Below, piece after piece: positions 16,335-30,265 of a stretch of 36,618 bases of DNA (position 1 is its first letter; each line of letters opens with the position of its first letter). The translations under genes were made by a program, and so were the position numbers. Under the pieces are notes generated by a model. That model saw only the letters and a list, made by a program, of their open reading frames with translations, ran no database searches and was not told the DNA's origin. The DNA is from a virus, in the IMG/VR virus record IMGVR_UViG_3300025280_000085, positions 1 to 36,618 of that record, one strand, 5' to 3'.

Positions 16335-16345
16335 TTACTTACTTT

Positions 16346-16375: not shown

Positions 16376-16376
16376 A

Positions 16377-16415: not shown

Positions 16416-16425
16416 AAGAGAAAAA

Positions 16426-16570: not shown

Positions 16571-16631
16571 CCTGTCCCATACACCCCTCCTAAACTCCCT
16601 CACCCTTTGTTTAAGATGGCGGCTATCGATA

Positions 16632-16894: not shown

Positions 16895-16935
16895 ACTATA
16901 CCTAAGATACTAAAGAGTCATGTTCTTGTCAAGCT

Positions 16936-17268
16936 CTAAATAATAGCATCGTCTATCTCCCCTGAATCAAGATTATTCATTTTATTATTAAGCTCTTCGG
17001 CTTGCTTAATGATATGATCAGGATCGTGACCCTGCTCGTAGTCCTCGAACTCCATGTCCATAAGGACAATCCTTGGTGTCTTAGTGCCTTGAACGCATAG
17101 AGCAACTCGACATCTATACTCTACGTTATTATGCACCATGATCCTATGCACCAAGTGCCATCCATTAGGGGCTAAATCTTCTAAAGCTTCTTCGCTTGGC
17201 CCCCTGTTTTTGTCTATGTTCTTGTTAACAATATGGAGCAACTGCTCAGTGGTAAAAGCTTTATTCAT
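16936..17268 (-). CDS. Hypothetical protein, 110 aa
   Basis: I place the start at ATG 17268, not at the far-upstream in-frame start at 17349. ATG 17268 has AGGAG upstream and overlaps the preceding stop by 8 bp (ATGAATAA), the usual coupled arrangement. The protein is acidic and soluble, with a helical N-terminus (FTTEQLLHIVNKNID), a strand-rich centre (NGWHLVHRIMV...YRCRVALCV...RIVLMDMEF) and an acidic tail. Unrecognised. It is likely co-translated with the RAMP-like protein directly upstream. Confidence 0.7.
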   Translation of the reverse strand: MNKAFTTEQLLHIVNKNIDKNRGPSEEALEDLAPNGWHLVHRIMVHNNVEYRCRVALCVQGTKTPRIVLMDMEFEDYEQGHDPDHIIKQAEELNNKMNNLDSGEIDDAII

Positions 17269-17998
17269 TAGACTTAATCTCCTCCTTGAGGCCAAAGAAA
17301 GAGCAATTAAATTTGCCATTGCCCTGACTACGCTCTGCCCCAAGACCATTCTCTTGAGAGTGCGTAATCAAATGCATGATATACTGTGGGACATCCAGAC
17401 GTTTCTTATCTTTCGTTATGATCTTCTCATTTAAGATCTTTAAGGTGAAAGTTATATAAGCTTTCTCTACGTAATCAACTCGTTTCAATGCGGAGATTTT
17501 ACCCATGGCAGTCATCGCATGAACCATCCCTTCGTATGATCCAGAAGGTTCTTGAAAAATGTCTGCCAAAGCGATATCCAATCCAGAATAGCGGAGATGC
17601 ACCTTGTCCTCTACGACAAAGACCCTCTCCGCTATTCTCGCCTTGAAAGCAGAGACATTCAAAACATTTTTGATTACGTTTGCAGATTCTTTAAACATAG
17701 ACTTGATCTGTCTGCCCTCTATGTAGAGTCCGCGTTCATCAGATTTGAATCCATTCCATGCAGACTTGGCGAGGTTTTCCAGATCGCTTTCGCTAAGGTT
17801 GTCTACATTCATGGACTCCTTAGTGTCTGCTACCATCTGCTCCAGCTTGCTCTTGTCTTCTACGTTAGCTCGTATCCAGCCTTCGATGGCCTTCTCTGAC
17901 TTGGGGATACCACCACAGAGCTTTTCCTTGAAGTCAAGGGTCATCGTATAGACAGAGAACAGATCAGAGTTGATGAATTTCTGGGCAAGGTTTTCCAC
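17261..17998 (-). CDS. RAMP/Cas7-fold-like phage protein, 245 aa
   Basis: GTG start at 17998 with AAGGAA eight bases upstream. Two segments match hallmarks of the RAMP (repeat-associated mysterious protein, RRM-fold) superfamily. YIEGRQIKSMFKESA (92-106) sits where RAMPs have 'IPGSSLKGxxR', and GLGAERSQGNGKF (218-230) matches the C-terminal glycine-rich loop 'GxGxxRSxGxGxF'. The spacing (about 125 residues) fits one RAMP domain. An early CGGIPKS...IEGWI block (28-42) is also distinctive. RAMPs bind RNA in type I/III CRISPR complexes, but there is no CRISPR array or other cas gene here. The role is therefore unknown: a stand-alone RNA-binding protein, an RNA-processing enzyme, or an anti-defence decoy. 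It is followed by the 110-aa gene with an 8-bp overlap. Confidence 0.75.
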   Translation of the reverse strand: MENLAQKFINSDLFSVYTMTLDFKEKLCGGIPKSEKAIEGWIRANVEDKSKLEQMVADTKESMNVDNLSESDLENLAKSAWNGFKSDERGLYIEGRQIKSMFKESANVIKNVLNVSAFKARIAERVFVVEDKVHLRYSGLDIALADIFQEPSGSYEGMVHAMTAMGKISALKRVDYVEKAYITFTLKILNEKIITKDKKRLDVPQYIMHLITHSQENGLGAERSQGNGKFNCSFFGLKEEIKSNE

Positions 17999-18024
17999 GT
18001 TGGGTTCCTTTCAATTAAAAGAGA

Positions 18025-18054
18025 AAGGGGAGGGGGAATTCGCCCCCTCCCCTT
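18025..18054 (-). terminator. Rho-independent terminator after the ParB-like gene
   Basis: A 12-bp GC-rich stem (AAGGGGAGGGGG with CCCCCTCCCCTT, 6-nt loop) lies between the stop at 18075 and the next start at 17998. On the minus strand it is followed by TCTCTTTT. It may only partly terminate, since the downstream genes have no other obvious promoter. Confidence 0.65.
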
Positions 18055-18074
18055 CGGCACTAAGGTTAGATGGT

Positions 18075-18911
18075 TTAGCTAGCTACTTTGTAAGCCTCTA
18101 GCTGTAGGGTTTCGAGATACTTCTTATACTTAGCAGGTGGAAGCGATCCATCTGCATAAGCCAGTGAAGCATTCGCCGCATCTCTGATGGTGTCTGAGAT
18201 GTCAAGGGTCTTAAGGTTGTCGGACATAGCTTCCAATTCCTTGGCGGTAGGCTTCAATGACCCACCGTGACCCTTCTTAGCTGCCGCTTTGCGGGTGTTG
18301 GACTTCTGTCCTCCCGCCGCAGTAACTACTTCGGCCAGTGCTTTGTCCTGTTCCTTGTGATCCTTGTGCTTACGGATCAACTTTACAGCCACATCAGCAG
18401 GGATGCGATTATTCCCTAAGGCATTTTTAATCTTACGAGATCCTCCTTCCAATGCCTTACGGTCCCGAACCCACTGATCACTACGGCTTAGCTTGAAAGC
18501 GATTTCTTTTGTGTCGTATCCATACGCTTCCATCTTAGCCACGATGTTTCCTTCTTCCAGCGGAGTGATGTCGCTACGTTCCATGTTAGAGGTAGCGGCA
18601 ACGATGACCGATGATTCGTCATCCATTCCTTGAAGGATACGAACGGGAAATGAAATCTCTACGCCCTGTTCGTGCAACATCTGCACTGCCTTGAGCCTAC
18701 GTTCCCCGTCGATCAGTCGGAAATCAAAGTCCGATCCTTTCGGATTGCGAGTAACTTTGATAGGGTCAAGCATCCCAACTTCACGAATGCTCGTTGCCAA
18801 CTGTTCGATATTCAAAAAACTTGTGCGATGATTGAATCCATCAATGACTTCAATCTGGGTGTAGTCAGTGATGTAGGGCATCGACTCAGAGGTTCTTTCT
18901 TTAGTAGCCAT
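18075..18911 (-). CDS. ParB/Srx-fold DNA-binding protein with HTH
   Basis: 278 residues. N-terminal ParB domain: GMLDPIKV (46-53), LIDGERRLKAV (66-76, the GxRR nucleotide motif) and NMERSDITPLEEG (109-121, the ParB 'NxxRxDLxPxEEA' block). A helix-turn-helix follows at about 131-152 (YDTKEIAFKLSRSDQWVRDR). The C-terminal half is basic (KAAAKKGHGG) then helical. Family knowledge: ParB-fold proteins bind CTP and short palindromic sites and spread on DNA; phage versions act in partition, transcription control or DNA modification contexts. No ParA is present in the window, which argues against a classical partition pair. The repeat array at 15.35-16.57 kb is a candidate binding site (inference). 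AAGGAG precedes ATG 18911. Confidence 0.85.
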   Translation of the reverse strand: MATKERTSESMPYITDYTQIEVIDGFNHRTSFLNIEQLATSIREVGMLDPIKVTRNPKGSDFDFRLIDGERRLKAVQMLHEQGVEISFPVRILQGMDDESSVIVAATSNMERSDITPLEEGNIVAKMEAYGYDTKEIAFKLSRSDQWVRDRKALEGGSRKIKNALGNNRIPADVAVKLIRKHKDHKEQDKALAEVVTAAGGQKSNTRKAAAKKGHGGSLKPTAKELEAMSDNLKTLDISDTIRDAANASLAYADGSLPPAKYKKYLETLQLEAYKVAS

Positions 18912-18938
18912 TTTTTTAAGTCTCCTTAAAGGGGTAAT

Positions 18939-19430
18939 TTAGAAGGGTAAGTCGTCGTCTTTTGCTTTTGCTTCGGACGGCTTATTACTCAAGCTCAACT
19001 TCGGTCCTTCACCTAACGACCAAAGCGTTTCGATGCTAGCACTCACCGTGTCTGGCTCCTTTCCTGCGGTGTGCTTAACTACGTAACCGATCTTGCGATC
19101 CAAGAACTCCAACTCAGGATCGTAGTCATCGGGGAAGTCTTCTGGAGTAAGAGGTCTTCCAAGGATGGCCTCTCTTCGACTCGCCAGTTTACCTTTGCGA
19201 GTAACGGTAAGGAAGTCCCACAAGTTGTAGAACATGGGAGTGCCTTCTTTGTCGGTGCGTTGCTTCCCTTTGTCATCTAACATGGGAGTTTCGGATTCGA
19301 TCTTGAGGATGATCTTATCCTTCAAGCCCCAAGGTGTCTCTTCTTGGTAGCGAACTTCTACCTCAAAGATATGACCTTGGTGCTGTCCTGTGGGGTGAGG
19401 AACAAAAGCTGACTTCGGAAAACTTAACAT
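18939..19430 (-). CDS. SSB-like single-stranded DNA-binding protein
   Basis: 163 residues. The N-terminal about 120 are strand-rich (HIFEVEVRYQEETPWGLKDKIILKIESE), compatible with an OB fold. The C-terminus is a low-complexity acidic tail ending exactly DDDLPF, nearly identical to the DDDIPF tip with which bacterial SSB recruits partner proteins. That tip, the size and the position beside a ParB-like gene make a phage SSB the best reading. The OB domain itself is not recognisably E. coli-type, so confidence rests mainly on the tail. Strong AAAGGAG before ATG 19430. It ends 28 bp before the ParB-like start and probably shares its transcript. Confidence 0.65.
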   Translation of the reverse strand: MLSFPKSAFVPHPTGQHQGHIFEVEVRYQEETPWGLKDKIILKIESETPMLDDKGKQRTDKEGTPMFYNLWDFLTVTRKGKLASRREAILGRPLTPEDFPDDYDPELEFLDRKIGYVVKHTAGKEPDTVSASIETLWSLGEGPKLSLSNKPSEAKAKDDDLPF

Positions 19431-19613
19431 TTACTTATCTCCTTTGTGCAATTGCACCTTGTATGGTGAGTTTGCGATTAATGAGACCCCACTTACCTTC
19501 CTTTCAGGTGGGTTGATTAAGGATGGGACTATCTTAACCGCCAGTATAATGGCACTGGCGAGGAGGAAAAAATAGGCTAATTTATTATTCTTGTTACCAA
19601 GAAATTTAACCAT
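19431..19613 (-). CDS. Small single-pass membrane protein, 60 aa
   Basis: ATG 19613 is preferred to an upstream in-frame start at 19631, because AGAGG lies upstream of it and the protein then begins MVKFLGNKNNK. One hydrophobic helix (about LAYFFLLASAIILAVKIV) follows a basic N-terminus, giving a probable N-in orientation. The outer 35 residues are polar. The stop abuts the start of the SSB-like gene. Unrecognised; candidates are an early membrane-acting or superinfection protein. Too little evidence to call it a holin, and the lysis gene is 6 kb away. Confidence 0.6.
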   Translation of the reverse strand: MVKFLGNKNNKLAYFFLLASAIILAVKIVPSLINPPERKVSGVSLIANSPYKVQLHKGDK

Positions 19614-19624
19614 AAAATAACCTC

Positions 19625-19652
19625 TTGTCAAGGGTTTTGTATTAGTTATATT
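19625..19652 (+). promoter_or_regulatory. Sigma70-type promoter for the plus-strand regulator gene
   Basis: TTGTCA (19625-19630, 5/6 to TTGACA), 16-bp spacer, TATATT (19647-19652, 5/6 to TATAAT). Its -35 lies within CTTGTCAAG, a near-palindrome. On the other strand this gives TTGACA followed at 17 bp by TAAATT, which could serve the minus-strand genes. Transcript start is predicted near 19659. Confidence 0.6.
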
Positions 19653-19659
19653 TAAGTAT

Positions 19660-19735
19660 CAACGTGACTGACGGAGCCACGTTGTCTCGCAAAGGGGGAA
19701 GTGGTTTCTAGCCATTCCACTTCCCCCTTTTAATT
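19660..19735 (+). promoter_or_regulatory. Two-hairpin leader, attenuator-like
   Basis: CAACGTG (19660-19666) pairs with CACGTTG (19678-19684). Then AAAGGGGGAAGTGG (19691-19704) pairs perfectly with CCACTTCCCCCTTT (19717-19730) and runs into TTTTAATT. The second is a 14-bp stem with a short T run, just before the ribosome site (GGAG) of the gene at 19747. The layout suggests premature termination or blocked initiation in the about 88-nt leader. Confidence 0.55.
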
Positions 19736-19746
19736 GGAGAAATTGT

Positions 19747-20361
19747 ATGAGCGAAGCAAGCTTAAGTCAAACTAGTCACATTCCCATCCCCGGCACATTA
19801 ACAGAGAACGCTTACCTGCCGTCAGAAACTATGAAGTTTGAGGATTGGCAACGGGCAGGTAGCTTACTAACCGACATTCAAACATCTATTAACTGGTGGA
19901 TTGGGGATTGGATACTTCATGGTGAAAAGACATGGCCCGATCAATTCAGTCAAGCCATTTACTTGACGGGCAAATCTGATGTAACGCTACGTAATAGTGC
20001 ATGGGTTTGTAATGTGTTTCCACCTGAAGATCGACATCCTTTGTTGTCTTATACTCACCACTTTGAAGTGGCCAGCGTTAAGAGTCCAGAGGAACGTAAG
20101 TGGTTGCTTGTTCAAGCAGAAGAGAAGGGACTGTCTTCCATTCAGCTTCGCAAATTAAGGAATAACAATGTAGGAGATGCGCCAGAGCTTCCATCCCTTG
20201 AGATGCCTGAGCATATGTCAAATGAATTACGTAAGGCCATGTCAGGGTTTATGGAAGCTCTGGCGGTATATAAACCTATCCACCACAGCGAAGAAGTAAC
20301 GTTTAAGTTGCCATGGGGCAGGGTCAATATGACGCTTACGGCTGAGACTATGCTGTCATAA
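19747..20361 (+). CDS. Regulator-like protein, lone plus-strand gene, 204 aa
   Basis: ATG 19747 with GGAG seven bases upstream. The block INWWIGDWILHGEKTW (48-63), TGKSDVTLRN (74-83) and RHPLLSYTHHFEVAS (96-110), then WLLVQAEEKGLSSIQLRKL, follows a pattern I associate with LmbU-like/ParB-related DNA-binding regulators ('wWigDwl...TLrN...R...LS.sHH..VA'). The last third contains FxLPWGRVNMTL, a strand pair. It is the only plus-strand gene inside the minus-strand block, with its own promoter and hairpin leader. That suits an autoregulated transcription factor controlling the flanking operon (inference). Its end overlaps the convergent DUF932 gene by 14 bp. Confidence 0.7.
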   Translation: MSEASLSQTSHIPIPGTLTENAYLPSETMKFEDWQRAGSLLTDIQTSINWWIGDWILHGEKTWPDQFSQAIYLTGKSDVTLRNSAWVCNVFPPEDRHPLLSYTHHFEVASVKSPEERKWLLVQAEEKGLSSIQLRKLRNNNVGDAPELPSLEMPEHMSNELRKAMSGFMEALAVYKPIHHSEEVTFKLPWGRVNMTLTAETMLS

Positions 20362-21418
20362 TCTTCCAGTCACTGCGAGGAAGCTCAACGACATCCCATC
20401 CGATTCCTTCCAACTCAGTAGCCCTGTCGTAGGAAGGAGCATCTTCTGCGGTTCGGGTTACGGCATTAGCCAATCCCCATTGGCTCAAGTCGTTCCCCTT
20501 TAAAAGATGCTGCATGACTCCAGAGGATTCAATTTGATTTAGATTGAATTTTCTCTGGGTTTTTTCAATTACGGCCAACGGATCACCTTCGATCTGATTG
20601 TCCGTAGTCTGACGGATCTCATTACAGATCCATTCAAAAGTTGCTTGAGACATAACCGACTTCACCAGATCACGAACTTGCATCCAGAAAGCTTCGTCCG
20701 TTTTCTGCTTAGTGGCATCGGTGTAAAGCTCCCAAGCATTATCAAGATCAGTCACGTTGTGACCCATCTTATTTCCTGTGTGATACTTCCGTTTGCCCCA
20801 CGAGTGGGCTTTCATTCCATTCATGCAAAGCACCCTAAGTAGCCAAGGAGTAACGCTTAGTGACCCATGTCCAACTTCAGAATTGGATATGACCACCCCG
20901 GCCTTTACAACATCTCCTTTCTTGATCTCTCCTTGAACGTGATCGGTGACTGCCTTAATGTAAAGGCGAGTTTCTGTCACTTCGCAACTAACCACCTCTG
21001 CTTTCGCTTCAATTAGCGAGGGCAGTATGGCCTCTAAGAGAAACCAGTTGTCCAAGGGGCGGTACTTCTCGCTGAGAAAAGCTCTCGCTCCACCATCTAA
21101 GGTTCGCACCAGCCTTTTCTCTGGTTCGGTGTTGAACCAGTGATTAATGTTGGTGCAAAGGAGTTCGGGCCATGCAGCGTTCATCCTGTCGTAATACTTC
21201 TTAGGAATCTTCAACCGACTACTGAGTTGTCCGTCAGCTATAGAGTTAGTAGGAAATGCACCTCGACCATTAATGGCCAGAGCGATTCCATCGGATGCTC
21301 CCTCCAATGTATGAGGGACGGCTTGGATAGATCTGGTATCAGCAAGCAAATCCAATTTGGAATCCATCTGACGGGTCAACTCACTTACTAACGGCTGAAG
21401 GTCACGACCTTTTTTCAT
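20348..21418 (-). CDS. DUF932-family phage/plasmid protein
   Basis: Matches the DUF932 (phage/plasmid-like) pattern: RAFLSEKYRPLDN, then VTETRLYIKAV, KGDVVKAGVVISNSEVGHGS, and LLRVLCMNGM followed by a conserved-looking basic/His stretch (KRKYHTGNKMG). The biochemical function of the family is not established; members occur on phages and plasmids and are usually expressed early. I choose ATG 21418 (GGAG eight bases upstream), giving 356 residues that start at the expected place (MKKGRDLQPLV). An in-frame ATG at 21487 adds 23 residues. It has AAGGAGG but only 3 bases from the start, and the extra stretch contains a 19-bp repeat also found in non-coding DNA, so it may be a leader rather than protein. 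Confidence 0.85.
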   Translation of the reverse strand: MKKGRDLQPLVSELTRQMDSKLDLLADTRSIQAVPHTLEGASDGIALAINGRGAFPTNSIADGQLSSRLKIPKKYYDRMNAAWPELLCTNINHWFNTEPEKRLVRTLDGGARAFLSEKYRPLDNWFLLEAILPSLIEAKAEVVSCEVTETRLYIKAVTDHVQGEIKKGDVVKAGVVISNSEVGHGSLSVTPWLLRVLCMNGMKAHSWGKRKYHTGNKMGHNVTDLDNAWELYTDATKQKTDEAFWMQVRDLVKSVMSQATFEWICNEIRQTTDNQIEGDPLAVIEKTQRKFNLNQIESSGVMQHLLKGNDLSQWGLANAVTRTAEDAPSYDRATELEGIGWDVVELPRSDWKIMTA

Positions 21419-21461
21419 TTTGAAACTCCATATTGAGAGGTAGCGGAAGAGGGAATCTCTT

Positions 21462-21480
21462 CTGCTTGTCAACAAGCAAG
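21462..21480. repeat. 19-bp dispersed repeat, copy 1
   Basis: CTGCTTGTCAACAAGCAAG, identical to 25414-25432. It contains the stem TGCTTGT-CA-ACAAGCA and, on the minus strand, TTGACA. Both copies lie upstream of minus-strand genes (DUF932 here; the 162-aa gene at the other site). Confidence 0.85.
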
Positions 21481-21554
21481 ATGCCATACACCTCCTTCCT
21501 TGGCACCTTGGCTGTAAGAGTTTTGTAAGAGTTTTGTTATAGTTTTAAATTTAA

Positions 21555-21749
21555 CTACTTCTTGTTAGAAGGGCAAGGATTATCTACCCCTTGTTGAGCC
21601 TTAAAGGCTAAGACTTGAATCTGTTGGAGAATACCTGTGATCACTGCATCCTCAATGGTGTGGCTGTTTATCACGAAGTGCGATTGGTTAGCCACAATAC
21701 TTTGGGCAATACGAAGATCTTCTTCGTCCAGATTAATGGTGATCTTCAT
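21555..21749 (-). CDS. Hypothetical protein, 64 aa
   Basis: A short acidic protein beginning MKITINLDEEDLRIAQSIV, a strand followed by helix as in small ribbon-helix-helix or related phage proteins; this is not specific enough to name. Its start codon shares a base with the stop of the preceding gene (ATGA-type overlap at 21749), a sign of a real coupled gene. The gap to the next gene (21487/21418) is AT-rich, with a repeated GTAAGAGTTTT motif and no further gene. Confidence 0.6.
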   Translation of the reverse strand: MKITINLDEEDLRIAQSIVANQSHFVINSHTIEDAVITGILQQIQVLAFKAQQGVDNPCPSNKK

Positions 21750-22192
21750 TACTTCGTCTCCTCACTAGGGATGGTGGTTTTTTGCTTCAATCCCAAATCA
21801 ACAACCCGTTGTGCTAATGTTGAGATCTCCTTGTTCTTCTCCTCCACAACAATCTCAAAGGCACGTATTTTTGCACCAAGATCCTTCAGCCTGTCGTCAG
21901 TCCTTTCTTTGTTGACCGTGTAACCATTACCGACCAACAAGATGAACTCTGCAAGGGACTGCATGGGGTTGGCGGCATCGCTGATCTCATTTATGATCTG
22001 CTGCCTGACCTCTGCCCACAATTCCTCTTTGAGATTCTCTTTGACATCTGACAGGTCTATATTAATGGTGATGTCTGTGCCGTAACCTTCGGTGTCACAG
22101 TCAATATCGTTGCCATGCTCATCCGAAACGGTGATGTCAACCTCAACCTCTACTTCGGCGGTTACTTCGGTTCTGAACTCGTGAGAAGCCAT
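21749..22192 (-). CDS. Acidic hypothetical protein with coiled coil, 147 aa
   Basis: The N-terminal 50 residues are strand-rich and very acidic (EVTAEVEVEVDITVSDEHGNDID). Then comes a helix, and residues about 95-135 (KERTDDRLKDLGAKIRAFEIVVEEKNKEISTLAQRV) form a likely coiled coil. No family recognised. The start overlaps the previous small gene by TAATG and the end overlaps the next by one base, so it is the middle of a coupled trio. Confidence 0.7.
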   Translation of the reverse strand: MASHEFRTEVTAEVEVEVDITVSDEHGNDIDCDTEGYGTDITINIDLSDVKENLKEELWAEVRQQIINEISDAANPMQSLAEFILLVGNGYTVNKERTDDRLKDLGAKIRAFEIVVEEKNKEISTLAQRVVDLGLKQKTTIPSEETK

Positions 22193-22329
22193 TATTTGTT
22201 CTCCTTAAGGGAAAGAGTTATGGCAGAAAATATGATGTCGGCTATCTCTTCATTGAGATCTTCGTAGATATCATCCTCACTGATAACATCATTCTGCAAG
22301 AGGTGTTCAAATAATGTTTGAGCCGTCAT
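22192..22329 (-). CDS. Short acidic protein, 45 aa
   Basis: The ORF from ATG 22329 to TAA at 22192-22194 encodes an acidic helical peptide beginning MTAQTLFEHLLQNDVISEDD. Support: its stop overlaps the next start as TAATG, it fills the gap between the GP88 gene and the 147-aa gene, and amino-acid use is protein-like. Against: AGCAGG abuts the ATG with no spacer, so translation may depend on coupling to the upstream gene, which stops 10 bp earlier. Confidence 0.6.
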   Translation of the reverse strand: MTAQTLFEHLLQNDVISEDDIYEDLNEEIADIIFSAITLSLKENK

Positions 22330-22339
22330 CCTGCTTAAG

Positions 22340-23074
22340 TTATGCGGACTTGGCATTCCATTCTTCCTTTCGCACCACCATTCCAGTGGTGTCGTTTTTT
22401 ATAGAGCCTTTCGGCTTAAGTAGCACCCAATGACCCGAAGGATCATCGATTCGTTCATCTGAGATATCACCATCCAAGGTTGGATACCCCATCCATGATT
22501 GTGGCCATGCTCCATCCTCCTTTTCCATGACCACTGCTACGTTAACTCCATGGTTTAATGCTTCCCAACAGTCAACCATGTTGCTTTCGCTTCGGCTGAA
22601 GGTGAGATGCATATGGTCTGGCTTATTTTTATAGTATCGAATGGGGATCTTAGTGTATTCCTCAAACCAGATCTCTTCGATATCATACCACTGCTTAAAC
22701 AGCTTGTCCCTATACCACATCTTGTCGCTGGTGAGATTCATTCGGGCTAAGAGGGGAAGATGTTTCTTCTCACCTCTTCGCTTCGCATTCAATAGCTCCG
22801 TATGAATGGTATCGGAGAACATCACTGGATGATTCTCCAAGATCCAGTTGCGAAGCATTCGTGCATTAATGATAGAAGCCATAGCCCCACGACCTTGATG
22901 CACTAAGCAGGGTGCAGTGCATCCCTCTGTCTGATAGGGACACAGCTTCTTCGTTGGCATCAGGTTAAGCCCCACCTGATACCAGTTGACCGCCTTGGCC
23001 AACTTAGGATTCTCTTCGCCCCACGTTAAGAGCTTGCGGGGCAACGACTTAGAGCGATGCTGCGTAATCTTCAT
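22340..23074 (-). CDS. GP88-domain phage protein, 244 aa
   Basis: Fits the GP88 family (named after mycobacteriophage gene product 88). A Cys cluster LCPYQTEGCTAPC at 44-56 (C45, C52, C56) and the following GRG correspond to the 'CP...C...C...GR' signature. LARMNLTSDKMW, YTKIPIRY, LTFSRSESN and GYPTLDGDISDERIDDP follow in the family's order. The function is unknown; the Cys cluster suggests metal binding, possibly an Fe-S or zinc site. ATG 23074 has GGAGG at 5-6 bases and overlaps the upstream gene by 26 bp. Confidence 0.8.
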   Translation of the reverse strand: MKITQHRSKSLPRKLLTWGEENPKLAKAVNWYQVGLNLMPTKKLCPYQTEGCTAPCLVHQGRGAMASIINARMLRNWILENHPVMFSDTIHTELLNAKRRGEKKHLPLLARMNLTSDKMWYRDKLFKQWYDIEEIWFEEYTKIPIRYYKNKPDHMHLTFSRSESNMVDCWEALNHGVNVAVVMEKEDGAWPQSWMGYPTLDGDISDERIDDPSGHWVLLKPKGSIKNDTTGMVVRKEEWNAKSA

Positions 23075-23588
23075 TCGACTCCTCCGTCTTTTCTTTCATG
23101 GATTCAATTGCCGATAAGGCCAGCAGTCTTGCTGTCTCCGCTGGAACTACTTGATAGGGTCTTACTTCTTTACCTCCTTGGCTTTGAACGTGTCCTTCTT
23201 CAGTGCTAAGCGAACACTTATTGCGGCATTCGTCAGCCCATTGATCGTCACACCTGAGGTCATACCTTTGTGTGAACTCCATTAGGTGGTAAGGCACCGG
23301 CCATACTCCGCTTCCTCCTTCTGTGAAGTCTGCCCTAAGCCGAATGCCTACCGTTGTGCTAAATGCTTTCTGCTCTTCCATCGACTTAGTCTCCTTAATG
23401 CAGAGGGAGACAGGACATAAACATGATTCGTTCCAGTCTACTGGCTCCTTAGGGAAAGCCTCCCAAGACTGAGTAGCCATAAGCTCAGGAAGCTCTGCCT
23501 CTTTCAGCCAGCTTTCCAACTCTTCTAAGGTTAACCACCATCCCAATTTTTCCTGCAGGTTTCCGTCATCTACCCAAGGAAGTTTCAT
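23049..23588 (-). CDS. Cys-containing hypothetical protein, 179 aa
   Basis: An acidic protein with Trp-rich N-terminus (WVDDGNLQEKLGWWLTLEELESWL) and seven cysteines, including CLCPVSLC and CDDQWADECRNKC, so a metal site is possible. No named family. It starts 2 bp after the stop of the 53-aa gene and uses AGGGAG inside that gene's end as ribosome site. It overlaps GP88 downstream by 26 bp. Confidence 0.7.
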   Translation of the reverse strand: MKLPWVDDGNLQEKLGWWLTLEELESWLKEAELPELMATQSWEAFPKEPVDWNESCLCPVSLCIKETKSMEEQKAFSTTVGIRLRADFTEGGSGVWPVPYHLMEFTQRYDLRCDDQWADECRNKCSLSTEEGHVQSQGGKEVRPYQVVPAETARLLALSAIESMKEKTEESNEDYAASL

Positions 23589-23590
23589 TT

Positions 23591-23752
23591 TTACTTACTC
23601 CCTATCTGAGCGAGTAACTTAGCTCGCTCCTTAGAGGCACCAACTCCCTTACCCAATCGCTTATCAAGGAGTTGGAGTTGCTGTTCGGGGGAACGCTCCA
23701 AGCGTTCCCCCTGACGAACTTCGGCTCGTTCAATGCGCTGGTCTTTGTTCAT
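23591..23752 (-). CDS. Small basic helical protein, 53 aa
   Basis: ATG 23752 sits 7 bases after a full AGGAGG; TAA at 23591-23593. The peptide is Arg/Gln/Glu-rich (MNKDQRIERAEVRQGERLE...) with a Lys/Arg-rich C-terminal half (LGKGVGASKERAKLLAQIGSK). It is tightly packed: 2 bp before the next gene, and its ribosome site overlaps the stop of the preceding broken gene. An 11-bp perfect hairpin (GGGGGAACGCT, loop CCA, AGCGTTCCCCC; 23687-23711) lies inside the coding sequence, encoding the ...QGERLERSPE... region. Function unknown. Confidence 0.7.
   Translation of the reverse strand: MNKDQRIERAEVRQGERLERSPEQQLQLLDKRLGKGVGASKERAKLLAQIGSK
23687..23711. repeat. 11-bp perfect stem, 3-nt loop hairpin inside a gene
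   Basis: GGGGGAACGCT-CCA-AGCGTTCCCCC, extended by an outer GTTC (23683-23686)/GAAC (23715-23718) pair. It has the same geometry as the hairpin field at 25.3-27.3 kb. Confidence 0.9.
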
Positions 23753-23764
23753 TGTGCTACCTCC

Positions 23765-23948
23765 TTAGTTGTATGAGTCTAAGAGTAAGTGACGCAGTGG
23801 CATTAACCTTCTCTGGACATCGGCCACTTCGATGGTGGTGTCTTCCCAAAACTTATTTGATTCCAAGTAGACGCGAAACTCAGTGACCAATTGTTCGCAT
23901 CTGCTCTAACTCTTTCACCTGTTGCTGCAACTGGTGAATGTAATTCAT
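23765..23948 (-). pseudogene. Frameshifted small phage protein (about 60 aa)
   Basis: ATG 23948 with a perfect AGGAGG begins MNYIHQLQQQVKELEQMRT but hits TGA at 23880-23882 after 22 codons. The next frame (+1) continues without a stop as LVTEFRVYLESNKFWEDTT and IEVADVQRRLMPLRHLLLDSYN to TAA at 23765-23767. The two halves join as one typical phage small protein: helical coiled-coil start, 'FRVYLES.KF', then 'VADVQRRL'. The span is 184 bp (61 codons plus one base). Either a one-base insertion/deletion, a sequencing error, or a +1 programmed frameshift around ACA-ATT-GGT. The downstream half ends exactly in the next gene's Shine-Dalgarno, so the full-length frame was once, or still is, used. Confidence 0.7.
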
Positions 23949-23959
23949 TCACAAGCCTC

Positions 23960-24223
23960 CTATTCTGATAGATCATACAGGTCATCCCAACCGTCTTCAG
24001 TTATTCCTGTCATCAGGAATTCCCGCTGATTGTCATCCAACATAGGCAAAGCATTCTGTATCAGAGTCCCTGTGTTCAGCCACTTAGCATAGCCCCGTTG
24101 AAATTGTAAGAAGGGAATGTCCCAAAGCTGAACACTCTGATCGCCGCTGAGGATGCTTCGTGCTGTAACAAGGGTGGTGTTATATTCACTTCGCTCCACC
24201 TTGACATCAGTGATCTGTGGCAT
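23960..24223 (-). CDS. Conserved phage protein, 87 aa
   Basis: The C-terminal half reads FQRGYAKWLNTGTLIQNALPMLDDNQREFLMTGITEDGWDDLY. This matches a small protein I have seen repeatedly in environmental phage genomes ('W..G..IQ.A.P.L....REF.MTG....W'), with no assigned function. The N-terminal 40 residues are strand-rich with polar Ser/Thr. AAGAGG precedes ATG 24223. The stop is 11 bp before the start of the frameshifted gene. Confidence 0.75.
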   Translation of the reverse strand: MPQITDVKVERSEYNTTLVTARSILSGDQSVQLWDIPFLQFQRGYAKWLNTGTLIQNALPMLDDNQREFLMTGITEDGWDDLYDLSE

Positions 24224-24241
24224 AATTTCCTCTTAGGTTAA

Positions 24242-24270
24242 GGGGAGAGGGGAATTAAACCCCTCTCCCC
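24242..24270 (-). terminator. Stem-loop between two minus-strand genes, terminator-like
   Basis: A perfect 11-bp stem GGGGAGAGGGG/CCCCTCTCCCC with a 7-nt AT loop, close in sequence to the terminator at 18025-18054. Only two Ts follow on the minus strand, so termination may be weak. The hairpin could instead protect the downstream message or set expression ratios. Confidence 0.45.
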
Positions 24271-24277
24271 GGCTCAC

Positions 24278-24643
24278 TTAATCCAATCGACTGCTTGTAT
24301 AGCAGTCAATGCCATAGTTGTTTAGCACCTTAGCAAAGGCTATGGCGAAGGCACTCTTTCTTGTATAGCTCTGTCCAAATTCACTTACCCAATAGTGCAA
24401 TCCCTTCGGGTAGGCTTTGGTACAGCCCCGTTCTTTCTTGGCCCATCGGCCCCATTGAGTATTCCCGGCAAATTTGATCTCAGCAAATCCACAGGGACCA
24501 TCAGGGACCATCCACTGTTGACCGGGATTGGGACCGATCTCTTCAGTGATTATCATCGGGGTGCATTGAGCGGCATTACCCGCTTCGGTCCCTGCTTCGT
24601 AAGCCATGCTCCAGATTTGGCTGAAGTCTATGGTGTCTTTCAT
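24278..24643 (-). CDS. Conserved phage protein, 121 aa
   Basis: The pattern DGPCGFAEIKF...FAGNTQWGRWAKKE...YPKGLHYWV......KSAFAIAFAKVLNNYGIDCYTSSRLD follows a family frequent in environmental phages: 'CGFAwv.i.p....fa.wLk', a Gly-aromatic strand, and an Ala-rich helix ending in S/R-(L/M)-D. No known activity. The start at 24643 is directly abutted by the stop of the upstream 58-aa gene, whose last codons supply the GAGGAGG ribosome site. Confidence 0.75.
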   Translation of the reverse strand: MKDTIDFSQIWSMAYEAGTEAGNAAQCTPMIITEEIGPNPGQQWMVPDGPCGFAEIKFAGNTQWGRWAKKERGCTKAYPKGLHYWVSEFGQSYTRKSAFAIAFAKVLNNYGIDCYTSSRLD

Positions 24644-24820
24644 TTAAACCTCCTCTGCGTCCAAGCTGGACGCTTCCTTAAAGGTGACCTTGCCGTAACG
24701 GTCCACCGATTGGTGAAGCCGAAGCGGTTCGGGGTGACGATTGAACTCCTCAACGGTTGCTCTGTTGAGAAGGGTGTTGATTGCTATTAAAGCATTGGCT
24801 TGTTGAGTTGTTATAGCCAT
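24644..24820 (-). CDS. Small hypothetical protein, 58 aa
   Basis: ATG 24820 has GGAGG at 7 bases; TAA at 24644-24646. Begins MAITTQQANALIAINTLLNRAT, a helix, then a polar C-terminal part (HQSVDRYGKVTFKEASSLD). It fits exactly between two genes with overlapping signals, so it is a real member of the operon although short. No family recognised. Confidence 0.75.
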   Translation of the reverse strand: MAITTQQANALIAINTLLNRATVEEFNRHPEPLRLHQSVDRYGKVTFKEASSLDAEEV

Positions 24821-24831
24821 TGTTAATCCTC

Positions 24832-25320
24832 CTAAACGTTGGACGTTGAGTGGGGCCAGTCTAACCGTGCTTGCTTCTCCTTAGCCCTTAATTCTAAGGA
24901 AAGTCTGTTCCTCTCACGGATAGCTTTTTGTTTTTCAAGTCTAATATCCAAGACGTTTTCTCTTAAGTCTTTAACCAAAGAATCTGAGGCTTCTTTGCCT
25001 AACTCGTAGGCAATCTCTACCATATTGCAGAGTGCTTCGTCTTCCTTGAGGCATGAAGACGTGATCTTACAAATCACGTCCCACAAAGACTTAATCCTCG
25101 GCTTATTACCTTGGACTATAGCCTTTCGTAGTTCGTCACCGAACTGCATCTGCCAAGCACACAACAGCGATGTGTTTAGCTCATGGCATTGGTCAATGTC
25201 CTTGACCCGCAGATCCATCTTACCAAACTGAACGGTGTCCTGTTCAGTAGCTTTGACTTCTTCTGCCAAGCCAGCTACGAACTTACGTAGCAAGGTCAAG
25301 GCATTCGTCAATACTTCCAT
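24832..25320 (-). CDS. Helical hypothetical protein, 162 aa
   Basis: ATG 25320 with AAAGGAG. Almost wholly helical. The C-terminal 50 residues (DLRENVLDIRLEKQKAIRERNRLSLELRAKEKQARL) form a strongly charged coiled coil. Four Cys are scattered (CHELNTSLLC, CKITSSC). Unrecognised. A hairpin TTCGCT-TAAC-AGCGAA (25334-25349) lies immediately upstream of the ribosome site, and GCAATAGC/GCTATTGC (about 25354/25385) encloses a larger leader loop, so the leader is structured. Confidence 0.7.
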   Translation of the reverse strand: MEVLTNALTLLRKFVAGLAEEVKATEQDTVQFGKMDLRVKDIDQCHELNTSLLCAWQMQFGDELRKAIVQGNKPRIKSLWDVICKITSSCLKEDEALCNMVEIAYELGKEASDSLVKDLRENVLDIRLEKQKAIRERNRLSLELRAKEKQARLDWPHSTSNV

Positions 25321-25413
25321 GGTACAACTCCTTTTCGCTTAACAGCGAATGATGCAATAGCTCAATGGCATTTACAGGACTTTCGCTATTGCGGGATGCC
25401 CCTTGATCTTCAA

Positions 25414-25432
25414 CTGCTTGTCAACAAGCAAG
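25414..25432. repeat. 19-bp dispersed repeat, copy 2
   Basis: Identical to 21462-21480 (CTGCTTGTCAACAAGCAAG). Here it lies in non-coding DNA, inside the loop of a 12-bp inverted repeat (CTTGATCTTCAA/TTGAAGATCAAG). Confidence 0.85.
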
Positions 25433-25714
25433 CTTACCTTCGGTCACCGTGATTAAATGGTTCCGACAGGTAGGCTTACCAGCCAACAACTTTTGAAGAT
25501 CAAGACAGTCCTTAAGGACTGATGAGTGTACATGCTTAGGCCTTCAGTCAGCTACCTAAGCACATACTATTTGCCCAACCCTGTCTCTCACTCAGGGGGT
25601 CCACTACGCTTACGAATGCTCTATCTCTTAATCCTTGACGAAGTCTCCGCTTATGAGCGGAGCGTTGATCTCGTCCTGTATCAAGGCCGCGAAGGGCTAA
25701 CAGGTGATCCATAG

Positions 25715-26090
25715 TCCACGAAGGGATGCCGTCAAGTATCTTGAGATGATCTCCGAAGGCCACAAAGGGCAAGATGCTTACGTAGTAAGGGACTCGTCAC
25801 TTCTCCGTTGAGAAGGACACGCTCTGGTCGCTTACCAAGCTGGAACTCCACGAAGGGAGTTAACCAGTGGTTGCAGCTTCAACTGCACTATCCAAAGCTG
25901 ATGTAAGGGGCTTAAGAGAGTACCAGCGGCGGTGTCGCTTACGATCCGTCAACGAAGGACGAACAGTTCACTGGCCTAAGGGTCTTAAACCCTATGGGAT
26001 TATCCACGAAGGGGGTGAGGCGAAGGCTCCACGAAGGGAGCTATGACTTATCCACGAAGGGATTTATACGAAGGCTCCACGAAGGGAGCA
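25715..26090. repeat. Six copies of a TCCACGAAGGG hairpin element with covarying stems
   Basis: The core TCCACGAAGGG recurs at about 25716, 25847, 26002, 26028, 26051 and 26076. Bases flanking the core change in pairs so that the stem is kept: AACTCC/GGAGTT, GCTCC/GGAGC (twice), ATCC/GGAT. One copy (26002) has lost pairing on one side. Related forms: GCC-GCGAA-GGGC near 25687 and CCTCCC-CGAA-GGGAGG near 26191. Confidence 0.85.
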
Positions 26091-26219
26091 AGGGTAGGAT
26101 GGCGTAGCTACGAAGTAGCTCAAAGATCTTAGAAGGGATACGCCGACATCCCTTAAGGGATGCCCCATCTCTTACCGATGGGACCAACCCCCTCCCCGAA
26201 GGGAGGAGGTCGGCAGCAC

Positions 26220-26786
26220 GATAGCCCTTCAGGCTATCTTGCTTCGGAGGCCTTTAGGCCTCGTCAATCAGGACCAAGGCATCTAAGAGGCCTTCCAACG
26301 CTCTTTCCAGAGCGTCTTTCAAGTCGTCTTCAACGACCTCGTCAATCTTCGCCTTCAGCGAAGATACGTCGATGTTCGGTTTCGAAGACTCCTTTGGAGT
26401 CTTGGAGGTCTTCTTAGAAGACCTTGGAAGTTCGCTTCGGCCCTCAGCCAAAGCCATCAACGACCAAAGCTCAGCTTTGGATAGTGCAGTGTCGCCATCT
26501 TTGATGGCGTCTTTAACCTTTCCGATGACGCTCCAAGCTTCTCCCCGGCAGATCAAGCCAGAGGCTTGATCCAGCAGGTCCCTTTCAGCTTCGCTGAAAT
26601 CTGCCAGTTCTGCTCCCTTCAGGAGCAGATTCATCGTCGGTTTGCTACTGTCCAGCGGCAAAGCCGCTGTTTCGAGTTTCATCCGATTCTTTGAATCGGA
26701 CTTACGAACTTTCGACTCCTCAGCTTTGCTGAGGTTCTTCAGGCTAAACTTAGCCATTTGAAGCTCCCTTCAGTCCCTTTGGGACT
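26220..26786. repeat. Run of 16 near-contiguous perfect hairpins
   Basis: Left arm starts and right arm ends: 26220-26238, 26247-26262, 26299-26314, 26323-26337, 26345-26365, 26385-26403, 26406-26424, 26464-26480, 26493-26509, 26551-26571, 26583-26599, 26609-26629, 26653-26669, 26682-26700, 26718-26734 and 26772-26786. Stems are 5-9 bp with no mismatch and loops 3-5 nt. Five have loop TTT, four CTTCA, and the others TTC, TTA, TTTA, TTCC, TCA, AGA and AAA. Fourteen overlap the 167-aa gene, including its stop codon (26247-26262). Confidence 0.93.
26254..26757 (-). CDS. Hairpin-laden hypothetical gene, 167 aa
   Basis: An ORF of 167 codons from ATG 26757 to TAA 26254. The protein is charged, Lys/Ser/Glu/Leu-rich and helical. 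A basic N-terminus (MAKFSLKNLSKAEESKVRKS) leads to a helical middle, then a Ser/Lys linker (SSKKTSKTPKESSKP) and an acidic amphipathic C-terminal helix (LKAKIDEVVEDDLKDALERALEGLLDALVL). A motif S-[K/E]-A-E recurs three times because three separate hairpins encode it. About half the gene is made of perfect hairpins. The protein pattern looks real (amphipathic, no cysteine bias), but repeated hairpin-derived tripeptides make selection at the nucleic acid level equally possible. No Shine-Dalgarno stronger than AAGGGAG (within hairpin flank) is visible. Unrecognised family. Confidence 0.55.
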   Translation of the reverse strand: MAKFSLKNLSKAEESKVRKSDSKNRMKLETAALPLDSSKPTMNLLLKGAELADFSEAERDLLDQASGLICRGEAWSVIGKVKDAIKDGDTALSKAELWSLMALAEGRSELPRSSKKTSKTPKESSKPNIDVSSLKAKIDEVVEDDLKDALERALEGLLDALVLIDEA

Positions 26787-26861
26787 TTCACGGGGTGAAC
26801 TGCAATACAACCGACCAACACAGAGTTGCGATGATCGGACCCCAAACTTACGGCACCCTAC

Positions 26862-26924
26862 CAACTCTTGTCAAGAGGTTTCGTAAATAACAAGTTATTT
26901 ACTACAACCTCTTGACAAGAGTTG
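26862..26924. repeat. 63-bp nested palindrome
   Basis: CAACTCTTGTCAAGAGGTT (26862-26880) and AACCTCTTGACAAGAGTTG (26906-26924) are exact 19-bp reverse complements. Between them GTAAATAA-CAAG-TTATTTAC (26883-26902) forms a second perfect 8-bp stem. Each 19-bp arm itself contains CTCTTG-T-CAAGAG, so a cruciform could branch. The TTGTCAAG core recurs at 16926, 19624 and in the 19-bp repeat. Confidence 0.95.
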
Positions 26925-26925
26925 A

Positions 26926-26975
26926 CTTGGAGGACTACTTACAGAAAACAAGTTTTCTGTAAGCAGTCCTCCAAG
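26926..26975. repeat. 50-bp palindrome with one mismatch
   Basis: CTTGGAGGACT and AGTCCTCCAAG enclose CTTACAGAAAAC-AA-GTTTTCTGTAAG. The only unpaired bases are A26937/C26964 and the 2-nt centre. It directly abuts the 63-bp palindrome. Confidence 0.95.
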
Positions 26976-26985
26976 AAATCAGCCT

Positions 26986-27056
26986 ACCCCCTCTCTGAGA
27001 AGCAGAGAGAGGGGGTCATCGCATTACTCCCTCTCTGAGTAGCAGAGAGAGGGAGT
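26986..27056. repeat. Two paralogous hairpins with compensatory base change
   Basis: Copy 1: ACCCCCTCTCTG-AGAAG-CAGAGAGAGGGGGT (26986-27016). Copy 2: ACTCCCTCTCTG-AGTAG-CAGAGAGAGGGAGT (27026-27056). The third base pair is C-G in one and T-A in the other, changed on both arms. Each has the same 2-nt bulge on the right arm. Confidence 0.93.
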
Positions 27057-27066
27057 TAGGTCTGGT

Positions 27067-27110
27067 AACCATCCACCCCATAGTTCCCAACAACCATCCA
27101 CCCCATGGTT
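27067..27110. repeat. 19-bp direct repeat pair with palindromic ends
   Basis: AACCATCCACCCCATAGTT (27067-27085) and AACCATCCACCCCATGGTT (27092-27110) start 25 bp apart and differ by one base. In the second, AACCAT pairs with ATGGTT. Confidence 0.9.
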
Positions 27111-27125
27111 CAGCCTCCCAATAAC

Positions 27126-27190
27126 AAAAGCTTTAGCTTTTTAGAAGAGTTCCAACAAAGCAATGACACACTAAAGGCTGAAGCCTTTAG
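27126..27190. repeat. Two further hairpins at the edge of the field
   Basis: AAAAGC-TTTA-GCTTTT (27126-27141) and CTAAAGGC-TGAA-GCCTTTAG (27171-27190), both perfect. A GCTCC-TTC-GGAGC stem follows at 27270-27282. Confidence 0.85.
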
Positions 27191-27224
27191 GGATGCGCGA
27201 AAAGGTCGCTGAGTCTATGCAGGG

Positions 27225-27345
27225 TCCGCTGCCATTTGACCCCTCAACGACGGGGAAAAAGCCCACGCGGCTCCTTCGGAGCTTAGGCGGCTTCCCGCGC
27301 CATGGCCCCGGCATCTGGCCCCCTCCGCAAACGTCATCCCCGACT
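27225..27345. other. GC-rich non-coding block upstream of terminase genes
   Basis: About 120 bp much richer in G+C than the flanking DNA (runs such as CCCGCGCCATGGCCCCGG), ending abruptly at AT-rich promoter DNA. No gene is convincing in it. Phage packaging (cos/pac) sites often lie just upstream of the small terminase gene, here 27733, so this is a candidate; that is position-based inference only. Confidence 0.35.
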
Positions 27346-27354
27346 TACGATTTT

Positions 27355-27363
27355 TGTTATAAT
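27355..27363 (+). promoter_or_regulatory. Extended -10 promoter, upstream copy
   Basis: TGTTATAAT gives a perfect TATAAT (27358-27363) with the TGn extension. There is no good -35 at 17 bp, as is usual for extended -10 promoters. It faces the packaging/head genes. Confidence 0.6.
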
Positions 27364-27411
27364 ATATGGCACTCCTACCAAGCGTATCATTTTTGGTCTA
27401 AAAAGTCATAT

Positions 27412-27440
27412 TTGGCTTGTTGCGCTTGTTGTGGTATAGT
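27412..27440 (+). promoter_or_regulatory. Extended -10 promoter, downstream copy
   Basis: TTGGCT (27412-27417), 17-bp spacer, TATAGT (27435-27440) with TG at 27432-27433. Predicted start near 27447, about 46 nt before the first gene. A small dyad CCGC-ATTAT-CGCGG (about 27457-27470) follows in the leader and could be an operator. Confidence 0.6.
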
Positions 27441-27492
27441 ATATTAGAGTATTATCCGCATTATCGCGGTTATATTAGAGAGGTGGTTTTGG

Positions 27493-27726
27493 ATGGACAG
27501 TCGTAATATAGTAAAGATGATTTCGGCGGCGGATGACATTATCAAGGTATTGCGGGATGAGTTAGGCGAGGAGGGTATTTCGTTAGAGACGTTGGGTATT
27601 GCTTCGGAGTTGGGTGATTTTGATAAGTTTTTCAGGTTGGCTGATATTTTGCCTACGGTATTGGGTCGTACGGCTTCTAACAAGGAAGTTTCTTTAATTT
27701 TGGAGGGTGGTACGCTTCACGTATAG
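27493..27726 (+). CDS. Hypothetical protein at head of packaging operon, 77 aa
   Basis: ATG 27493 with GAGAGGTGG upstream. An acidic helical protein (SAADDIIKVLRDELGEEGISLETLGIASELGDFDKFFRLADILP) with a strand at the end (EVSLILEGGTLHV). It is the first gene after two promoters and 6 bp before the small terminase gene. No family recognised; a packaging-accessory or regulatory role is plausible from position. Confidence 0.7.
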   Translation: MDSRNIVKMISAADDIIKVLRDELGEEGISLETLGIASELGDFDKFFRLADILPTVLGRTASNKEVSLILEGGTLHV

Positions 27727-28492: not shown

Positions 28493-28703
28493 TAATAGAT
28501 GGATAGACGCGGTGTATGGTTTGGCGGGTATTCCACGTGAAACAATGGAAGAGTATCAAAGGGTCAAGAAATCGTTGGGTTCATTTTCCGTTAAAAAAAT
28601 ATTCCCAAAATTAGGTGAAAAGGTAGAGCCGCATACGGATGAGGACCAGCGGGTGGTGTATGAGGAGGATGAGCATGGTAAGACGGTTACTACGTTATTG
28701 TGA
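28485..28703 (+). CDS. Small hypothetical protein, 72 aa
   Basis: The same frame is open from an ATG at 28437, but I choose ATG 28485. It has AGAGGG in front, it gives an 8-bp overlap with the previous stop, and the extra upstream residues look unlike protein (MRWVFCCLKVTLQRG). The chosen protein starts MNSNRWIDAVYGLAGIPRET and ends acidic. Its stop overlaps the GTG start of the large terminase (GTGA). Unknown function, possibly packaging accessory. Confidence 0.65.
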   Translation: MNSNRWIDAVYGLAGIPRETMEEYQRVKKSLGSFSVKKIFPKLGEKVEPHTDEDQRVVYEEDEHGKTVTTLL

Positions 28704-30265
28704 GAGATCCTGCACAGCAAGCGGCTGAGATTCTTTTAGAGCGGGAGTCGGCCTATGATACGTTGCTAGATTTCACTACGTTTACCTTCCCCAAGTTCGT
28801 AGTAGCGGATCATCATCATGTTATCTGTGAAAAGCTCCAAGAGGTGGAGTCGGGTGAGTGTCATCGTTTGATGATTTTTATGCCGCCTAGACATGGCAAA
28901 AGTGAGTTGGCTAGTCGCAGATTCCCGGCATGGTTTATGGGTCGCAATCCTAATTCATCTATAATACATGCTTCATATGGTCAGGAGCTAGCTACGGATT
29001 TTGGTCGTGATGTTAGGGAGATCGTCAACGGCGAAGAGTATCAAAAGATTTTTGAGGGGAAGAAGCTTTCTCAGGATGCTACTGCCGCTAATAAGTGGCG
29101 TATTGCTGATTATCGGGGTGAGTATTTTGCGGTGGGTGTTGGCACGGCAGCCACGGGACGAGGAGCAGACCTACTCATTATAGATGATCCTATTAAGAAT
29201 CGTGAGGAGGCAGATTCGTTATCGGAGCGAGAGAGGGTCTGGGCGTGGTATCGCTCTACGGCCTTTACTCGCTTGCAGCCTAATGCAAAGATCATTGTCA
29301 TCCAAACACGCTGGCATGACGACGACTTGAGTGGTAGGCTGATTCAGCAGATGGATGATACGGAGGAGGTACGGGATTGGGAGGTATTGAAGCTTGCGGC
29401 AGAAGCGATGGATGACGATCCTTTGGGTAGGGACAAGGGTAAGGCTCTCTGGCCGGGATGGTATGATGAGAAAGCGTTAAAAGAAATTCGTGGGGTCTTG
29501 GGGGAAAGAGAGTATCACGCACTTTACCAGCAGGAGCCTACCCGTGCGGAAGGAGCCTTTTTCCACATAGACTGGTTTGATATGTATGAGCATCTCCCTC
29601 CTCATACTACGTTGCGTTTTTATGGTACTAGTGACTATGCAACATCAGAGCGTTCTGGTGCGGATTATACGGTGCATGTCGTTTTTGCAGTAGATCCATA
29701 TGACCGTATTTATGTGGCTGATTTTTGGAAGAAGCGAGCTAAGCCACAGGAATGGATTGAGTCGGTCATCGATATGATGAAGAAGTGGAAGATCACGCAG
29801 TGGGGGGAGGAGCGTGGTCAGATCTTGAATTCTGTTGGTCCTTACTTATCACAGCGGATGAAGGAGCGTGACGCTTATTGCTATAGGAAGCAGTATACGC
29901 CGAGTAAGGATAAGACAGTTAGAGCTAGAGCTATTCAGGGGAGGGCGCAGCAGAAGATGATCTTGTTTCCTTCTAAGAGGCGTTGGACACAAGAGGTGTT
30001 GCAGACGTTAACCAATTTCCCCGTGGGGAAGCATGATGATGAGGTAGATTGTTTTTCTTTGCTGGGTATTATGTTGGAAGAGCTTACGCCCGGCAAGCCG
30101 CTACCTGACGAAGATAATCCATGGGGAGCTAGGACATATACTTTTGAAGAGTTGATGCACAGAAGCAAGTTGCGTAGGCAGGGTAAAAGAGTCGTTAGGG
30201 AGGCTCCTATCATAGGGTCACACGATCCTATTCCTTATGACCAGCATTATAGTAGTGTAGAATAG
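28700..30265 (+). CDS. terL: Terminase large subunit
   Basis: 521 residues: the packaging motor ATPase and nuclease. ATPase part: Walker A-like MPPRHGKS (61-68), Walker B LLIIDDP (158-164) and motif III QTRWHDDD (202-209). Nuclease (RNase H-like) part: SD312YA, with HDDEVD (445-450) supplying the distal acids. Length and motif order are those of Terminase_6-type large subunits. It uses GTG at 28700, overlapping the previous stop as GTGA, so translation is coupled. The spacing to the portal gene is 59 bp, containing a possible weak promoter. Confidence 0.95.
   Translation: MRDPAQQAAEILLERESAYDTLLDFTTFTFPKFVVADHHHVICEKLQEVESGECHRLMIFMPPRHGKSELASRRFPAWFMGRNPNSSIIHASYGQELATDFGRDVREIVNGEEYQKIFEGKKLSQDATAANKWRIADYRGEYFAVGVGTAATGRGADLLIIDDPIKNREEADSLSERERVWAWYRSTAFTRLQPNAKIIVIQTRWHDDDLSGRLIQQMDDTEEVRDWEVLKLAAEAMDDDPLGRDKGKALWPGWYDEKALKEIRGVLGEREYHALYQQEPTRAEGAFFHIDWFDMYEHLPPHTTLRFYGTSDYATSERSGADYTVHVVFAVDPYDRIYVADFWKKRAKPQEWIESVIDMMKKWKITQWGEERGQILNSVGPYLSQRMKERDAYCYRKQYTPSKDKTVRARAIQGRAQQKMILFPSKRRWTQEVLQTLTNFPVGKHDDEVDCFSLLGIMLEELTPGKPLPDEDNPWGARTYTFEELMHRSKLRRQGKRVVREAPIIGSHDPIPYDQHYSSVE

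Follow-up and report, generated by a model that had tools for sequence, protein, structure and literature searches.

A hairpin-dense phage locus carries a candidate large structured RNA next to genes with perfect coding hairpins

About 2 kb of a virus genome holds dozens of perfect hairpins, in non-coding DNA and in genes alike, and the question arises of what these hairpins are and how they came about. They lie in a 36.6-kb virus record, 36,618 nucleotides in all and incomplete, which is referred to below as the window. The hairpin field forms the 5′ part of a leftward gene unit and adjoins the divergent spacer (Table 1). The terminase has its best match among known phages in Pseudanabaena phage Pam1 (46%), and ARAGORN found no tRNA in the window, an incomplete record.

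Table 1. Features of the window and of its hairpin field (strand - is the leftward strand)
Feature	Position	Strand or direction	Remarks
Large terminase gene	28700-30265	rightward	
Major head protein gene	35280-36278	rightward	
Leftward genes	about 12982-26757	leftward	include endolysin and ParB-like protein
CTCTG-NNNAG-CAGAG hairpin, copy 2	27025-27056	-	
CTCTG-NNNAG-CAGAG hairpin, copy 1	26985-27016	-	near-identical in L012
Leader hairpin 2	26926-26975	-	24-nt arms, 96% complementary
Leader hairpin 1	26862-26924	-	19-bp perfect arms around an inner 8-bp stem-loop
167-aa gene	26254-26757	-	12 perfect hairpins; homologues in L008, L045, L127
Candidate new class of large, structured non-coding RNA	25321-26253	-	between the 167-aa and 162-aa genes; ends approximate
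Two consecutive hairpins, 5′ boundary of RNA	26191-26248	-	same place as the L008 hammerhead
Motif GGACGAGRYNAACG of RNA	25663-25676	-	conserved in relatives
Helix, 13 bp, 14-nt loop	25528-25567	-	compensatory changes between window and L008
Possible pseudoknot	25367-25402	-	GGGCAU (from 25402 down) with AUGCC in the 3′-hairpin loop (25371-25367)
3′ hairpin, 8-bp variable stem, loop GAAAGYYYUGNAAAUGCCAUUGA	25354-25392	-	covariation in 7 phages
162-aa gene, directly downstream of RNA	24832-25320	-	hairpins mostly in the 5′ half

Exact hairpins with a stem of at least 6 bp and a loop of 3-8 nt were counted in each kilobase. There are 11 in 25001-26000 and 22 in 26001-27000, whereas dinucleotide-shuffled DNA gives the far lower means of 1.9 (maximum 6) and 1.8 (maximum 4), respectively. 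The remaining kilobases of the window mostly contain 0-3, and a few contain 4-7. Between 25321 and 27283, the limits given in the first-pass annotation, there are 33 at this stem length and 48 when stems of at least 5 bp are admitted. That annotation had described a dense field of perfect hairpins with few elsewhere, extending over non-coding DNA and a gene, and the counts bear it out. It had also stated that the loops are not random and that TTT and CTTCA recur, which is correct: on the minus strand AAA occurs five times, TGAAG four times and CTTCGT three times, equivalent on the plus strand to TTT, CTTCA and ACGAAG. The field is thus real, but its left limit was misplaced, as the run of hairpins begins near 25058, inside the 162-aa ORF. 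The field has three parts, all within one leftward transcript, namely a non-coding RNA, the 167-aa gene and a set of leader hairpins. RNA-fold z-scores are as low as -12.7 (200-nt window at 26801, minus strand), and the individual elements have z-scores of -7.2 (RNA), -12.3 (167-aa ORF) and -11.8 (leader).

The same hairpin field is present in L007 (99.8% identity to the window over 17.9 kb) and L006 (99.9% over 10.2 kb); since both were assembled separately from other metagenomes, an assembly error is unlikely. No DNA relative of the field was detected among 50,697 phage records. When the window was compared with L007 over ∼10 kb (18.8-29 kb), 14 of the 18 substitutions were found clustered in 25175-26739. 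L007 also contains an 11-base insertion (GTCCGCTTCGC) at window position 23893. The contig of a 95%-identical relative, L009, starts at about window position 27372, the edge of the hairpin region; perhaps the palindromes caused this break in assembly.

Regions homologous to the RNA part of the field are found in L008 (690-1335, minus strand), L045 (5005-5840, minus strand) and L127 (6310-7010, plus strand), each preceded by a homologue of the 167-aa gene and followed by a small, variable gene; the length of the RNA is about 0.65-0.93 kb. In four more distant relatives (L012, L013, L014 and L016, with 62-63% terminase identity) a comparable stretch precedes a different basic gene, and these stretches are very probably homologous to the window RNA. 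RNAalifold on these four gave -170.5 kcal/mol in the minus sense, compared with -148.8 in the antisense and -95.3 ± 6.3 for column-shuffled alignments, and 32 of the 159 pairs in their consensus show double-sided changes. The 3′ hairpin is common to both groups of RNA, with a similar loop sequence; in seven phages 55 of 56 cells are canonical, and all eight pairs change type. Five double-sided and two one-sided compensatory changes distinguish the 13-bp helix of the window from that of L008; read in the minus sense, this helix includes two G.U pairs. The 36 substitutions between L045 and L127 include four double and three single compensations and leave all 221 pairs intact; on the same measure the antisense fold is about equally good. 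In the pooled RNAs of the relatives, one-mismatch 7-bp stems with G.U number 11 in the minus sense (2.3 when shuffled) and 7 in the antisense (3.6 when shuffled). Taken together, the 159-pair consensus, the 3′ hairpin, the 13-bp helix, the comparison of L045 with L127 and the G.U-containing stems are good evidence that 25321-26253 specifies a structured minus-strand RNA. It is non-coding and has a conserved structure with compensatory changes, as is expected of a large structured phage RNA.

What links the RNA of the window clade to that of the L012 family is their shared position and 3′ hairpin, together with short motifs, e.g. GGACGAG. Motif GGACGAGRYNAACG is present in the window, L008, L045 and L127, and also in L012-L016 (as GGATGAG in L013). 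The window-clade alignment folds at -52.5, compared with -40.4 ± 4.6 when shuffled and -46.3 in the antisense, an excess that is modest because the sequences align poorly. A model of the 3′ hairpin (R1), built from seven carriers, matches each of the eight carriers, with no other convincing match in 1.1 Mb; the window hairpin scores 43.8 bits with a model that includes the window sequence. When the model is made solely from hairpins of the L012 family, L008 is a weak match (E 0.05) and the window is not matched. A scan of genome contigs with the loop motif gave 15 matches, none of them with a matching stem, which we read as chance, and L124 and L125 were rejected as carriers because they have the loop motif and lack the stem. 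Both strands of the proposed GGGCAU-AUGCC pseudoknot are conserved in the alignment of the window, L008, L045 and L127, and the pairing is possible. A 20-nt perfect inverted match joins 25882-25901 in the RNA with 26471-26490 in the 167-aa gene, and long-range pairing between the two may also be possible.

Rfam gave no gathering-level match in the window and no plausible family up to E 5 in 24600-27500; in six relatives the hammerhead ribozyme was the only family matched. Type II hammerheads have a CUGAUGA and GAAA core and three stems. This core is present in L008, where a type II hammerhead (1330-1256, minus strand; 51.3 bits) lies exactly between the RNA and the gene upstream of it, and because of this location release of the RNA through self-cleavage is plausible in L008. 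A second type II hammerhead (4139-4212, minus strand; 40.7 bits) lies in a later spacer of the leftward operon of L045. In contrast, the window lacks the core and has just the pair of hairpins at the same 5′-boundary position; the hammerhead model found no match in the window, nor at the RNA 5′ boundary of L045 and L127. The superficial likeness of 26191-26262 (minus strand) to the core (UGACGAG...CGAA) was discounted, as it is not matched by the model and the letters TGACGAG are the end of the 167-aa gene.

The 167-aa ORF is a real gene. Its protein has homologues in L008 (E 7e-08), L045 and L127, and all of them combine a helical domain with a basic linker of low complexity and a helix at the C-terminus. 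AlphaFold (mean pLDDT 65) predicts the helical domain at residues ∼34-110, followed by a disordered basic linker and the C-terminal helix. The protein has no phrog or Pfam match, and its predicted fold has no significant structural match. The 12 hairpins of this gene compare with 1.0 after synonymous-codon shuffling (maximum 4 in 200 shuffles), and the 162-aa ORF has 7 compared with 1.07. The homologous genes contain three hairpins in L008, inside its shuffle range, and none in L045 or L127. With no comparable set there, the coding hairpins are lineage-specific. Perfect 7-bp stems number 12 in the 167-aa gene, 0.3 being expected, but there is no surplus of stems with one mismatch, a pattern that suggests homogenisation of the arms or strong selection; stem length is 7-9 bp. 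The RNA part has 3 perfect 7-bp stems and 13 with one mismatch. The coding hairpins thus arose within the window lineage, where they are retained or made perfect.

These results separate several ideas of the first-pass annotation. Its structured transcript holds for 25321-26253, on the strength of covariation in relatives and of G.U pairs in the minus sense. One generating process for the whole field does not hold, since the RNA covaries with G.U pairs whereas the stems of the gene are nearly all perfect. A selfish hairpin expansion is difficult to reconcile with the 167-aa protein, which is shorter than its homologues and aligns to them nearly without gaps across the hairpin positions of the conserved domain; on the same grounds we rule out that mobile hairpins were inserted into this gene.

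Terminator-like sites, defined by a GC-rich stem with a U tract after it, number 2 compared with 3.6 in shuffled sequence, and the hairpins of the leader (26758-27190) lack the U tract and were ruled out as intrinsic terminators. The CTCTG-NNNAG-CAGAG core recurs in L011 and, in three copies, in an unrelated 73-kb phage, L044, where the outer stem differs and the differences are compensated. Sites of this form, with covarying outer stems, lie in gene spacers of phages that are not otherwise related, at L044:1075-1122 and 1565-1612, L156:1490-1537, window 26985-27056 and L012:5650-5697. From their sequences they seem to be an RNA element that phage spacers carry.

Other repeats were noted in the spacers of relatives. 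Near-palindromes of the form TGCAAANTTTGCA are repeated, as judged by eye, in divergent spacers at L011:440-620, L016:1100-1260 and L013:7460-7610, and are possibly operator sites. Intergenic hairpins with a 6-bp stem and a 3-nt loop are located at L013:7665-7962 and L014:8110-8404; their core ATGGTAT/ATACCAT is constant while the outer arms co-vary (CCAAATACCATTTGG, ATGGATGGTATCCAT, CTGAATGGTATTCAG). They resemble promoters or operators more than any hairpin of the window does.

We favor, with a probability of about 0.6, an explanation in which the field at the 5′ end of the leftward unit comprises a large non-coding RNA with a structural role in trans, and in which the flanking mRNA has been recoded into hairpins. 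The RNA would be a segment of the leftward transcript, fold into many helices and the conserved 3′ hairpin, and serve as an abundant, trans-acting structural RNA, by itself or together with a protein. The 167-aa protein might be that partner, although this idea is weak because the RNA-adjacent gene of L012, L013 and L014 encodes a protein with no detectable homology to it. In the window lineage the flanking mRNA (the 167-aa gene, the leader and the start of the 162-aa gene) would have been recoded to short perfect local hairpins. We prefer the view, which is unproven, that these would hold the flanking mRNA folded and away from the RNA. Many of the arms were probably supplied or made perfect by template switching that homogenised imperfect palindromes. 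The coding hairpins are absent from L008, L045 and L127 and therefore do not demonstrate a service to the RNA. The RNA itself is well supported; its role in trans and what gave rise to the coding hairpins we infer from sequence. We consider it doubtful that this new RNA class belongs to a higher-order RNA or RNA-protein particle and that the recoded flanks fold the 2-kb transcript as one compact object.

Somewhat unlikely, in our judgement, is a purely mutational origin, by which template switching or repair would have perfected palindromes, chiefly in the two genes, with no function attached. The excess of perfect over one-mismatch stems in the 167-aa gene, the lack of hairpins in homologous genes and the clustering of the substitutions between the window and L007 are consistent with it, and the binary pattern of perfect and imperfect repeats is that of the coding palindromes in Nematomorpha mitochondria (PMC6649704). 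However, such an origin leaves the restriction to ∼2 kb around a conserved RNA unexplained and cannot produce the covarying stems and conserved loops seen in the RNA part. In addition, the L007 differences within the 162-aa gene fall mainly at codon positions 1 and 3, which rather suggests recombination with a diverged allele. Template switching, as proposed earlier, is a live explanation for the coding hairpins and not for the covarying RNA. An unlikely reading, although one with several observations in its favor, is that the hairpins are processing or stability sites (RNase III-like or protein-binding) along the leftward operon. The CTCTG-NNNAG-CAGAG hairpin with its covarying outer stem in spacers of the unrelated phage, the 19- and 24-bp leader stems and the type II hammerheads that L008 and L045 have in spacers all point this way, but at best they cover the leader, not the dense coding hairpins or the multi-helix RNA.

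We regard as improbable that the RNA controls the downstream gene in cis, as a very long 5′ leader akin to a riboswitch or attenuator. In the window, L008 and L014 it does end 30-60 nt before a start codon that has a ribosome-binding site. However, the RNA is kept while the protein encoded 3′ of it changes among phages (162, 78, 113 or about 205 aa), which argues against a leader of one particular gene, and it is larger and more complex than known leaders and has no Rfam match. An array of promoters for an N4-type virion RNA polymerase, put forward in the first-pass annotation, or of primase or origin hairpins, is very improbable. The window hairpins do share short stems and 3-nt loops with N4 promoter hairpins and are sited between divergent units, but they have no common, promoter-like stem sequence and continue through coding DNA. 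Moreover, searches of PHROGs, Pfam and PDB sequences with the large proteins found no relative of a virion or other RNA polymerase in the window, an incomplete record.

No Rfam family, no DNA match in the phage database and no description in the open-access literature was found for the RNA. An unrelated RNA class in another phage group would provide an independent system for asking what large phage RNAs do. Its neighbours are useful as well, as they include a candidate protein partner and, in L008, a self-cleaving ribozyme at the 5′ edge. The 167-aa gene, with 12 perfect stem-loops and an intact protein, offers a test case for selection on mRNA structure versus homogenisation of palindromes. 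The nearest precedent found for its hairpins is the mitochondrial genes of Nematomorpha, in which perfect coding inverted repeats are many, imperfect ones are not in excess and the pattern is lineage-specific; the origin of these palindromes was ascribed to template switching or conversion of the arms (PMC6649704). The 167-aa gene shows the same lineage-specific excess of perfect over imperfect repeats. Unlike the nematomorph palindromes (mean 43 bp), its stems are 7-9 bp, the hairpins are confined to ∼2 kb of a phage genome, and they flank a conserved structured RNA.

As to the RNA itself, the comparison is with GOLLD and ROOL, the best-known large phage RNAs, whose function is still open; they often, but not obligatorily, lie near tRNA islands, and a homo-oligomeric nanocage is one of their features. 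They are phage-borne non-coding RNAs of ∼600-900 nt with elaborate conserved structure (PMC12286853). The window RNA differs from them in that it has no covariance-model match in Rfam, with no relation apparent, and in that it lies between genes near the terminase end of a window without tRNA, the record being incomplete. Like them, it is phage-borne, similar in size and elaborate in its conserved structure, and it is perhaps a new class of large phage RNA of a kind like GOLLD and ROOL.
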